Position numbers and translations under genes: made by a program
Notes under the pieces: generated by a model
Told to the model about the DNA's origin: nothing
Seen by the model: only the letters and a program-made list of their open reading frames with translations
The model's database searches: none
Shown here: positions 1,593-46,415 of the stretch, in pieces
How positions within the stretch are numbered: position 1 is the first letter of the stretch
Layout: every line of letters begins with the position of its first letter
Assembly: GCF_000426625.1 (NCBI RefSeq)
Contig: NZ_KE384547.1
Coordinates: 1,348,986-1,412,985, forward strand
Source of the DNA: Psychrilyobacter atlanticus DSM 19335
Lineage (GTDB): Bacteria; Fusobacteriota; Fusobacteriia; Fusobacteriales; Fusobacteriaceae
DNA length: 64,000 nt
Direction of reading: 5' to 3'

Positions 1593-1603
1593 AAAAAAGT
1601 TTT

Positions 1604-1673
1604 GGCAACTGGCTGTCATATCTATAGACTTAGACCCTTAAGTTTTGCGTCATAGGATTTCCCCTATTTTGCC
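1604..1673 (-). promoter_or_regulatory. Cyclic-di-GMP-I riboswitch (GEMM-I)
   Basis: On the minus strand the element opens with GGCAAAATAGGGG, continues with CCTATGACGCAAAAC, then AAGGGTCTAAG, and closes with ATGACAGCCAGTTGCC. These are the conserved blocks of the GEMM-I aptamer: the first hairpin, the GACGCAAA joining region, the second hairpin with the tetraloop-receptor-like GGGTCTAAG, and the closing GCC...TTGCC strand that pairs with the opening GGCAA. A promoter lies upstream (1711-1739) and a terminator and two small genes lie downstream. Whether ligand binding switches expression on or off cannot be read reliably by eye. Confidence 0.92.
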
Positions 1674-1710
1674 TTTTTCAGAATTCAATTTTTTAATTAC
1701 AATTCTAATT

Positions 1711-42919: not shown

Positions 42920-44596
42920 TTAATTAATTTTTCTCTCTTCATTAATTAAGTTTTTTAAAGAAAATTCTCTTGTCAAAACTTTTTCGTAATTTTGAAGTTG
43001 ATCATCATCAATTCTATTTAATATTGGGTAAGGTTTCTTTATTAATAGATCCATACTAGTGGAAGTTTCTTTACTATAGTGAATTTTTTCTTTTTTCTGT
43101 AATTGTTTTTCCCATAGTTCTCTACTTATAGTTGGTAAAATTGGATTTAAAAAAATAATTAATTTTTCACAAATATACATAGAAACTCCTAAAATTTCTT
43201 TTAATTTTTCTAAATCATTATTTTTAGCTAATTCCCAAGGTTTTTCATTATCGAAATAAATATTTCCAATTGATGCTAATTCTATTACTTTTGATAAAGC
43301 CGATCTAAAAGAGAAAATTTCATAGTTTTTCATTATTATACTGCATTTTTCATCGACTTTTGAGATGATTTCCAAATCATTAGAAAGATCAATTTTAATT
43401 TCTCCATCGAAGTTTTTCCAGACCATATTCAAACTCCTATTAAAAAAATTAAAAATTTTACCTATTAATTCGCTGTTATGAAAATTTTTATAATCTAATA
43501 AATTAAAATTAGAATCTCTTTTTTCTGGTAATATATAAGTTAAGTATGCTCTAAGTGAATCTATATTAATATCACAATTTAAAAAATTTATGCAAAATAT
43601 TCCGACCCCTTTACTTTTAGAAAATTTTTCATTTTCATATGTTAAATAATTATATCCAATTACATTATTAGGAGTATTATATTCTCCATTTCCAATTAAA
43701 AGCCCCGGCCAAAAAATAGTATGAAATGGGATATTATCTTTCCCCAAGAAATGATAAATTTTAGTATTTTTATTTTCCCAAAGGTTTTTATTATTAATTT
43801 CTTCAATGAAGCTTATGTACGCAATAGGGGCTTCAAACCACACGTAAAACACTTTGTCTTCATACATTTTTTTAGGAACAGGAATTCCCCATGTCATATT
43901 TCGTGTGATACTCCTAGGGTGTAGATCTTTATTCAACCAATTTTGAGCTTCACTATATGTAATATTATTAAAAACTTCTTCTTTTGTTTTTACCCAATCA
44001 GATATTTCATTTGAAACTTTATCTAATGAAAAATATAAATGAGTATCTTCTTTTTCTATAGGTTTATTCCCACAAAGTTTACATCTTGAATCTAAAAGTG
44101 AAGAAGATTCGGTCAGTGAACCACATTTTTCACATTGATCACCATTGGAATTTTCATACCCGCAATTAGGACAAGTTCCTTCAATAAGACGATCTGGTAG
44201 GTAAAGTTTGTCATATTCACAATACTTCATAATAGAAGTTTTTTCTTGAATATAACCATTATCATCAAGCTTTGTAAAAAAGTTTTGTACATTTTTTTTA
44301 TGTATAGGTGATGATGTTTTTGAATAGTTATCATATGAAATATTAAAATAATCATATAATTTTTTATGAACTTTATGTAGGTTATCTGTGAGAACTTCTG
44401 GAGAAATACCGATTTCTCTAGAAAGTATTAAAGAAGGAGTCCCATGAACATCTGATCCTCCTACAAACAAAGTGTCTTCTCCTTTGATTTTACAAAACCG
44501 ATTATAGATGTCTGCTGGTAAATGTGAACCAGCAATATGCCCTAGGTGTGGAACGTTATTAATATACGGTAAAGCAGCAGTAATAATTTTTGTCAT
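42920..44596 (-). CDS. metG: Methionyl-tRNA synthetase, accessory-type copy
   Basis: This 558-residue class I synthetase charges tRNA-Met. The HIGH motif reads HLGH in NNVPHLGHIAGSHLP, the KMSKS loop reads KFSKSKG, and the inserted zinc knuckles are CPNCG...CEKCG...CKLCG. It ends after the anticodon-binding helices and lacks the C-terminal dimer/tRNA-binding domain common in bacterial MetG. It lies in an accessory region between two csp 3' ends. Upstream is a Met-codon leader with a terminator. A second, housekeeping metG may exist elsewhere; extra MetRS copies are known to give resistance to MetRS inhibitors. Confidence 0.92.
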   Translation of the reverse strand: MTKIITAALPYINNVPHLGHIAGSHLPADIYNRFCKIKGEDTLFVGGSDVHGTPSLILSREIGISPEVLTDNLHKVHKKLYDYFNISYDNYSKTSSPIHKKNVQNFFTKLDDNGYIQEKTSIMKYCEYDKLYLPDRLIEGTCPNCGYENSNGDQCEKCGSLTESSSLLDSRCKLCGNKPIEKEDTHLYFSLDKVSNEISDWVKTKEEVFNNITYSEAQNWLNKDLHPRSITRNMTWGIPVPKKMYEDKVFYVWFEAPIAYISFIEEINNKNLWENKNTKIYHFLGKDNIPFHTIFWPGLLIGNGEYNTPNNVIGYNYLTYENEKFSKSKGVGIFCINFLNCDINIDSLRAYLTYILPEKRDSNFNLLDYKNFHNSELIGKIFNFFNRSLNMVWKNFDGEIKIDLSNDLEIISKVDEKCSIIMKNYEIFSFRSALSKVIELASIGNIYFDNEKPWELAKNNDLEKLKEILGVSMYICEKLIIFLNPILPTISRELWEKQLQKKEKIHYSKETSTSMDLLIKKPYPILNRIDDDQLQNYEKVLTREFSLKNLINEERKIN

Positions 44597-44639: not shown

Positions 44640-44675
44640 AAAAAAAGCCTGTGGCGTCTACCACAGGCTTTCATA
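44640..44675 (-). terminator. Attenuator terminator before metG
   Basis: On the minus strand AAAGCCTGTGG and CCACAGGCTTT form an 11-base stem around TAGACG, followed by seven T. It lies about 45 bases before metG and downstream of the Met-rich leader ORF. Confidence 0.9.
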
Positions 44676-44693
44676 ATTGCTTGAAAGATGTTT

Positions 44694-44729
44694 GGCAGAC
44701 TCAGTAAATTAATACAAAATGAGTCTGCC
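44694..44729 (-). promoter_or_regulatory. Leader hairpins between leader peptide and terminator
   Basis: A perfect GGCAGACTCA/TGAGTCTGCC stem lies here. A further CTTAAATT/AATTTAAG stem lies just after the leader stop (about 44730-44750). Together with the terminator they give the successive hairpins expected of a ribosome-controlled attenuator. Confidence 0.7.
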
Positions 44730-44750
44730 CTTAAATTTAAATAATTTAAG

Positions 44751-44810
44751 TTACAAACCCTTCCAAAGCATCATCATCATATTTAATTGTCTGAATTCTA
44801 TATTTTTCAT
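44751..44810 (-). CDS. Methionine-rich leader peptide of metG
   Basis: The 19-residue frame reads MKNIEFRQLNMMMMLWKGL. Four consecutive ATG codons lie at 44769-44780. GGAG is nine bases before the start codon. It precedes hairpins, an intrinsic terminator and metG. Ribosome stalling at the Met codons when charged tRNA-Met is scarce would be expected to favour an antiterminated structure and raise synthetase expression. This reading is inference from layout. Confidence 0.78.
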   Translation of the reverse strand: MKNIEFRQLNMMMMLWKGL

Positions 44811-44989
44811 AACAATCTTCTCCATTTGAATTTTTTTAGATAATAACATAAATTTTATTTAAATGTAAAGTCTTTTTTTCAGAATTAATAATTATAAACA
44901 TGTTTTCATAGAAACTTTACCACCTTTCAAATCAACTAAAATAACTAAATATTTCGGGGCACATGTTAGAGCCTGTGTCCTTAAAAGTA

Positions 44990-45776: not shown

Positions 45777-46415
45777 TTATTGAGAGTCAATCTCAATGGC
45801 TTTAGTATAATCCTCTAATGCACCTTCAATATTGCCTAATTTTTCCCTAATTTTCCCTCTATCGCTATAGTTATAAATATAGTTAGGATCGACTTCTATT
45901 CCTTTAGTATAGTCTTCTAATGCACCATCAGTATTGCCTAATTTTTCCCTAATTTTCCCTCTATAGATATAGTTATAAATATAGTTAGGATCGACTTCTA
46001 TTCCTTTAGTATAATCCTCTAATGCACCATCAGTATTCCCCAATTTTTCCCTAAGTTGCCCTCTGTAGTTATAGTTATAAACATAGTTAGGATCGACTTC
46101 TATTCCTTTAGTATAGTCTTCTAATGCACCATCAGTATTGCCTAATTTTTCCCTAAGTTGCCCTCTATAGATATAGTTATAAATATAGTTAGGATCGACT
46201 TCTATTCCTTTAGTATAGTCTTCTAATGCTTCATCAGTATTGCCTAATTTTTCCCTAAGTAATCCTTTTCGACTATAGCTATAGGCAGCTGTATTGACTG
46301 TAGTATAAGGTTTATTGTTCACATCAAGATTTGAACCTGTTTTTCGCTTTTGACAACCTATAAATAATATTATTAAAAATAATATTAATAATTTCTTTAC
46401 CCATTTTCTTTTCAA
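45777..46415 (-). CDS. TPR-repeat lipoprotein
   Basis: This 212-residue protein has a lipoprotein signal (LIILFIGC) and five 34-residue TPR units of the pattern REKLGNTDGALEDYTKGIEV then DPNYIYNYxYRGQL. The units are almost identical in protein and DNA (102-bp period). TPR lipoproteins usually scaffold other envelope proteins; no partner is evident. The near identity marks recent expansion or repeated homogenisation, and unit number may vary between strains. Confidence 0.88.
   Translation of the reverse strand: MKRKWVKKLLILFLIILFIGCQKRKTGSNLDVNNKPYTTVNTAAYSYSRKGLLREKLGNTDEALEDYTKGIEVDPNYIYNYIYRGQLREKLGNTDGALEDYTKGIEVDPNYVYNYNYRGQLREKLGNTDGALEDYTKGIEVDPNYIYNYIYRGKIREKLGNTDGALEDYTKGIEVDPNYIYNYSDRGKIREKLGNIEGALEDYTKAIEIDSQ

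Follow-up and report, generated by a model that had tools for sequence, protein, structure and literature searches.

What controls expression of metG, the accessory methionyl-tRNA synthetase (MetRS) gene encoded within the window (the whole stretch of 64,000 nucleotides that was analysed)? A first-pass annotation had noted, all in one direction, a 19-codon open reading frame (ORF) with four ATG codons and a ribosome site, two perfect stems, an 11-bp terminator stem with seven T and then metG, and each of these features was confirmed (Table 1). It had also proposed that metG is governed by attenuation sensing Met-tRNA charging. This is supported computationally, with metG as one case of a wider family, and we consider it likely (probability about 0.86), on computational analysis and without experiment, that the metG leader is a ribosome-mediated transcription attenuator sensing charged Met-tRNA. 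Part of this reading, inferred from sequence alone, is that the leader belongs to a homologous attenuator family of the Fusobacteriota in which sensor codons have been exchanged to suit the regulated gene.

Table 1. The metG leader region and the genes behind its copies; positions are those of the window.
Feature	Sequence	Position	Strand	Remarks
Promoter-like site	TTTACA-18-TATTAT	44840..44869	minus	Consensus match only
Leader ORF	MKNIEFRQLNMMMMLWKGL, then stop	44751..44810	minus	19 codons; GGAG 9 nt upstream
Sensor (Met)	ATG x4 in succession	44769..44780	minus	Inside leader ORF
Segment a	GGGUUUGU	44753..44760	minus	8 nt past last Met codon; overlaps stop codon
Hairpin P2	CUUAAAUU/AAUUUAAG	44730..44750 (arms 44750-44743/44737-44730)	minus	Perfect 8 bp; stem covaries family-wide
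Segment c	GCAGACUC	44721..44728	minus	Partner is a or c'
Hairpin P3 (c:c')	GGCAGACUCA/UGAGUCUGCC	44694..44729 (arms 44729-44720/44703-44694)	minus	Perfect 10 bp
Segment c'	GAGUCUGC	44695..44702	minus	Near-duplicate of a
Candidate antiterminator		44660..44696	minus	44696-44693 and 44687-44683 pair with 44663-44660 and 44672-44668; predicted only
Intrinsic terminator	AAAGCCTGTGG/CCACAGGCTTT	44644..44671 (arms 44671-44661/44654-44644)	minus	11-bp stem
Seven-T run		44640..44646	minus	Ends terminator
metG		42920..44596	minus	Accessory methionyl-tRNA synthetase, 558 aa; regulated gene
Gene behind leader copy L002				metN, methionine ABC transporter ATPase
Gene behind leader copy L003				hom, homoserine dehydrogenase

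The leader ORF, its codon run and the terminator are shown at the level of sequence. The promoter-like site has 10 of 12 consensus matches, with TG preceding the second hexamer (by chance the region has 2.8 matches on average), and the paralogous metN leader carries TTTACA-17-TATTAT at the equivalent place. The 11-bp terminator stem was lengthened to 13 bp by a terminator scanner. Folding of 44640-44825 gave -61.0 kcal/mol by comparison with -33.4 kcal/mol for shuffled sequences (z = -7.0), and none of 200 shuffles was as stable. An Rfam search of the metG leader returned no T-box, SAM aptamer or amino-acid leader family, so the earlier statement that T-box motif and SAM aptamer are both absent held: the leader matched neither the T-box covariance model nor the conserved T-box bulge, the SAM-I aptamer model was likewise unmatched, none of the enterobacterial His, Trp, Thr, Leu and Phe leaders reached its gathering score, and the trpB motif (RF04312) gave no match. 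Elsewhere in the window lie a c-di-GMP-I riboswitch aptamer (1601-1683, minus strand; 79 bits, gathering score 35), genes for GGDEF-type proteins, and a lipoprotein-like ORF (45777-46415, minus strand) with near-identical tandem TPR-type repeats (EKLGNTDGALEDYTKGIEVDPNY).

By the features that define a leader-peptide attenuator, the locus has a short ORF with a ribosome-binding site, a run of cognate codons and an intrinsic terminator before the gene; mutually exclusive helices including an antiterminator are met computationally only, and the metG antiterminator is weak. All of the defining features of classic leader-peptide attenuators that can be tested in the sequence are therefore present.

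In the mechanism that we propose, a shortage of Met-tRNA would stall the ribosome on the Met codons and leave segment a free; a would then pair with c as soon as c is made, enclosing P2 and releasing c', and the 3' part of c' together with the bases following it would pair with the 5' arm of the terminator, allowing RNA polymerase to read into metG. With plentiful Met-tRNA the ribosome would reach the stop codon and cover a; c would pair with c', the terminator arm would be free and transcription would end. The net logic would be that of his and trp, with starvation giving antitermination and sufficiency giving termination. With a sensor codon in the A site, a stalled ribosome occupies about 9-12 nt past that codon, from which it follows that it would leave a free or nearly free, while a ribosome at the stop codon, located at or close to a, would cover a. 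It is inferred that the leader is translated, that the ribosome stalls on it and that read-through rises with uncharged tRNA; which way and how strongly the system responds is inference too. One point counts against Met sensing: Met starvation limits initiation too. Met is an odd sensor in this respect, as the start of the leader itself needs charged Met-tRNA and strong starvation should switch the sensor off.

The metG product matches TIGR00398 (metG) with 501.9 bits against a cut-off of 336, and the claim that it is an accessory copy held, as a second MetRS frame is present in the same genome (653 codons, G000:C2:879921-881324; 28-34% identical to the accessory MetRS). The genome's only T-box-like RNA (G000:C3:1020955-1021128; 73 of 93 bits, below the cut-off) lies upstream of an asparaginyl-tRNA synthetase-like gene (asnS-like). 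Copies of the metG leader precede metN (94-95% identical) and hom (82%) in this genome, and this repetition indicates that the features of the metG leader are more than chance. Same-genus genomes also have the leader before metY; the metN, hom and metY leaders of Psychrilyobacter contain three to four Met codons each, and the same leader is carried on contigs of Psychrilyobacter sp. CSMAG_2932, Fusobacteriaceae bacterium UBA2433 and Fusobacteriia bacterium 4572_74. Indels within the ORF of Met-type relatives are whole codons (CTA insertions), and three pairs of P3 in Psychrilyobacter show compensatory two-sided changes between metN-type and hom-type leaders.

Accessory metG was present in two of the eight same-genus genomes searched, and the next relative of the gene, 44% identical, is in another family. 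In one of the two, metG is split in two frames behind an intact leader (G007:C2:1505373-1507047), which may be a frameshift or an assembly error. The simplest reading, an inference, is that an acquired metG was placed behind a copy of the metN leader. The further suggestion in the first-pass annotation, that leader and gene form a self-contained inducible MetRS cassette, failed; the leader is a copy from the methionine regulon (metN, metY/hom) in front of a patchily distributed metG.

In other genera of the family metN has a SAM-I riboswitch upstream in 18 of 20 loci examined, which implies that Psychrilyobacter senses something else at this gene. There is one genus with two metN copies, one behind a SAM riboswitch and the other behind a Met leader. 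The sole SAM-I aptamer of the window's own genome (G000:C2:2308549-2308650) precedes an ECF-type transporter operon (S component and ATPase); methionine or a precursor is the likely substrate, although this too is inferred from sequence alone.

R1, a covariance model trained on 12 Psychrilyobacter leaders, detected related leaders in other genera. A second model, R2, trained on 21 diverse leaders, matched 45 of 98 Fusobacteriota genomes and 11 of 29 genera at E <= 0.01. There were zero R2 matches in a 13-genome genus of the same order (g17), which serves as a negative control, and most other genera of the order had none. In a second genus of the family, metY and metN are preceded by Met-rich leaders (MFNKAMKTTMMNMMPLGVGTKN and MKNNLISKTTMMNMMMPMGVGTKN, each followed by a stop codon); a third genus has Met leaders before metY, His leaders (ending KHHHIGRV before the stop) before hisZ and a Met-Cys leader (ending NMCMCSRRV) upstream of a gene whose product has a sulfite/nitrite reductase domain. 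Across the family, Met runs precede metN, metY, metE, metA and metG; poly-His leaders precede hisZ and amino-acid ABC receptor genes; poly-Asn leaders precede asnA (aspartate-ammonia ligase; eight loci); and poly-Tyr, Pro-containing and Trp-Trp leaders precede an AGCS carrier gene, putP and an SNF-family symporter gene, respectively, with Cys leaders before cysK and an SDF-family symporter gene. The window's own genome has a poly-His member (MFNRSLIFITVHHHHHR, then stop; G000:C2:787076-787240, minus strand) before an amino-acid ABC receptor gene.

The match between codon run and gene is shown by sequence and extends to essentially all of the 80 leaders, a few of which rely on reading by eye. 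Automatic sensor calls are wrong for about seven leaders whose N-termini are rich in Asn or whose runs are mixed (three HisZ leaders, L160, L101, L164 and L158); by eye these read HHH, HYH, MCMC, WW and MMCMC. The training sequences contained no Asn, Pro or Trp leaders, and the match of codon and gene in these is therefore an independent success. N-terminal residues of the leader peptides are unconserved in the family comparison, whereas the codon run is conserved. Weak blastn matches (L014-L016, L023) and weak covariance matches (L082, L083, L085, L087-L090, L104) were rejected as chance on inspection.

Members share the order codon run, segment a, P2, segment c, loop, c', spacer and terminator. 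Segment a has the consensus GAGUUUGU and begins 6-8 nt after the last sensor codon in 64 of 80 leaders by automatic scoring, so that its near-constant spacing is also shown by sequence. Segment c is CAGACUC in the family, the following loop often starts UUUUG and c' is often a near copy of a. Alternative helices and their covariation are likewise shown. Given no structure, RNAalifold picked a:c, P2 and the terminator in both alignments, and double changes were present in 14 of 21 pairs in the alignment of the 21 diverse leaders, which was made with MAFFT and not fitted to a structure. Among the 80 distinct leaders, 93.9% of helix cells were paired (71.1% in shuffles), the covariation score was 0.675 (0.250) and there were 418 double-changed cells (122); sliding the helix partner by one base reduced pairing to below 50%. 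Helix a:c was paired in 95% of cells over the 80 leaders, with changes such as AU48/GC22/GU10 and GC58/AU18, and in the terminator stem of the family model all 10 of 10 pairs covary. The 80-leader alignment was fitted to the proposed structure and the covariation figures from it are therefore inflated. Of two checks proposed in the first-pass annotation, that on alternative folds showed that mutually exclusive folds exist (a:c versus c:c') and that the antiterminator candidate overlaps the terminator 5' arm; that on homologous loci showed Met codons to be kept wherever the gene is a Met gene, with matching amino-acid runs elsewhere.

In energy predictions, helix c:c' averaged -12.9 kcal/mol by comparison with -4.9 kcal/mol for shuffled sequences and was better in 77 of 79 leaders; candidate antiterminators averaged -7.5 against -5.0 kcal/mol and were better in 67 of 79. 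When a was masked, the terminator 5' arm was less paired than in the a:c state in 53 leaders and more paired in four. In metG the hairpin from a to c is predicted at about -13 kcal/mol, compared with -4.5 kcal/mol for P2 alone, and the candidate antiterminator at -8.6 against about -5.8 kcal/mol for shuffles; the latter is short, interrupted and weak. At equilibrium, helix a:c was the best fold, or tied for best, in no more than 34 of the 79 leaders; for metG it was worse than the best fold by about 4-6 kcal/mol, with values of 3.8-5.5 kcal/mol in the two metG leaders. Given that other folds win at equilibrium in metG, co-transcriptional timing would have to decide. Moreover, the antiterminator persisted in one folding test with the ribosome parked at the stop codon, a result that obliges the model to assume either timely release of the ribosome or formation of P3. 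Related leaders are non-independent observations, and the shuffle and rank tests overstate significance and are descriptive only. Two further pairings were set aside: direct pairing of GGGUUUGUAA with UUAYGAAAGCC of the terminator arm suits metN-type leaders and fails in most hom/metY leaders, and P1, the three-way-junction helix of the minimum-energy fold, is predicted in metG and metN, is unsteady in hom/metY and was left out of the core of the model.

We considered whether the leader could instead be a metabolite-binding riboswitch, the class proposed for the Rfam trpB motif, its Met-rich ORF being merely incidental. In favour of this are the conserved, structured RNA and the below-cut-off matches of several relatives to RF04312, which was published as a strong riboswitch candidate (PMC11109978). 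Against this, a single scaffold fronts Met, His, Tyr, Asn, Pro and Cys genes with the codon run as its variable part, apart from the switching helices the RNA shows no large conserved aptamer core, and the spacing from codon run to a is nearly fixed; we regard this explanation as very improbable. Little weight can be given either to the possibility that this is simply a terminator or mRNA leader that contains a short ORF and senses no amino acid, the Met codons having arisen by chance or drift. In its favour, the leader has been copied within the genome, so that paralogue similarity (94-95% for metG and metN) partly reflects recent duplication; it is opposed by codon runs that suit the genes in essentially all 80 leaders, by the restriction of Met-type ORF indels to whole codons and by covarying helices.

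Control by a nascent peptide or an antibiotic, as in ermC, for example of an inducible resistance MetRS, is the least favoured of the three rivals and also highly unlikely. Accessory MetRS genes can give resistance to MetRS inhibitors, and metG is both accessory and patchy in distribution. However, the N-terminus of the leader peptide is unconserved while the codon run is conserved, the same leader fronts metN and metY, and a MetRS inhibitor would still work via uncharged Met-tRNA, as in the attenuation model.

The attenuator reading also bears on the trpB motif. Narunsky 2024 (PMC11109978) described more than 900 members from the Firmicutes and Fusobacteria, most of them upstream of genes for amino-acid ABC transporters, and called the motif a strong riboswitch candidate without excluding a classic attenuator. 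It resembles the family described here in having a P3-like hairpin followed by a terminator, in its occurrence in Firmicutes and Fusobacteria and in its location mostly before amino-acid ABC transporter genes; it differs in leaving out the leader ORF and segment a and in being filed as a riboswitch candidate. RF04312 matched several relatives of the metG leader with up to about 52 bits (gathering score 59), although it reached its gathering score in none of 100 genomes and every Fusobacteriota match fell below. These matches span P3 and the terminator and not the leader ORF. Further RF04312 matches that were inspected also carry leaders with His runs. A leader found via RF04312 (L179, upstream of locus position 1476, minus strand; MRDMKKIENRKLNTANSFWYFYYFINTDL, then stop) contains FWYFYYF and precedes a DAHP synthase gene; it is inferred to be a possible aromatic-amino-acid attenuator. 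The His-run and FWYFYYF leaders at RF04312 matches favour the attenuator reading for Fusobacteriota members only, and the trpB motif may be an attenuator instead of a riboswitch. A bolder joint reading, towards which we lean by a narrow margin, is that one ancestral scaffold spread through the Fusobacteriota, was re-targeted by exchange of codon runs and replaced metN SAM riboswitches in one genus, with RF04312, at least in Fusobacteriota, representing the 3' half of an attenuator.

A concrete and testable reading is thereby offered for a published orphan riboswitch candidate. A scaffold with constant RNA and swapped codons lends itself to testing the evolution of regulatory specificity, and it could easily be used as an amino-acid reporter. 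Substrates are also predicted for unassigned Fusobacteriota transporters, namely Tyr for the AGCS carrier and His for the ABC receptors.

Most leader-peptide attenuation described in the literature searched comes from Proteobacteria, from Actinobacteria and from some of the Firmicutes: Naville and Gautheret 2010 (PMC2965389) gave leader peptides as known from Proteobacteria and Actinobacteria and added Bacilli, and Seliverstov 2005 (PMC1262725) found no Met attenuators in Actinobacteria. No description of Met leader peptides, or of attenuation in Fusobacteria, was found in the open-access literature searched, although absence there is no proof. The His attenuators of Firmicutes (Naville and Gautheret 2010, PMC2965389; PMC9413887) are similar in having a poly-His ORF before his genes and a terminator with an antiterminator, outside Proteobacteria; no homology comparison was made, and the searched text of these two papers mentions no occurrence in Fusobacteria. 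The SAM-I riboswitch (S-box) before metN acts on the same gene, is terminator-based and turns Met genes off when Met is plentiful, but it senses SAM, whereas the metG-type leader is proposed to sense Met-tRNA charging. The closest parallels are the enterobacterial attenuators of the trp, his and phe type (pheST for a synthetase gene), with which the Fusobacteriota family shares a short leader ORF, a cognate codon run, exclusive helices, an intrinsic terminator and ribosome position as the switch. It differs from these in having another scaffold, with repeated a/c' and no match to an Rfam leader family, and in the use of one homologous scaffold for many amino acids, with Met, Asn, Pro and Tyr sensors. 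The mechanism is thus of a known kind. The apparent novelties are the scaffold, its occurrence in this phylum, the presence of Met, Asn, Pro and Tyr sensors on a single homologous RNA and the connection with an orphan motif.
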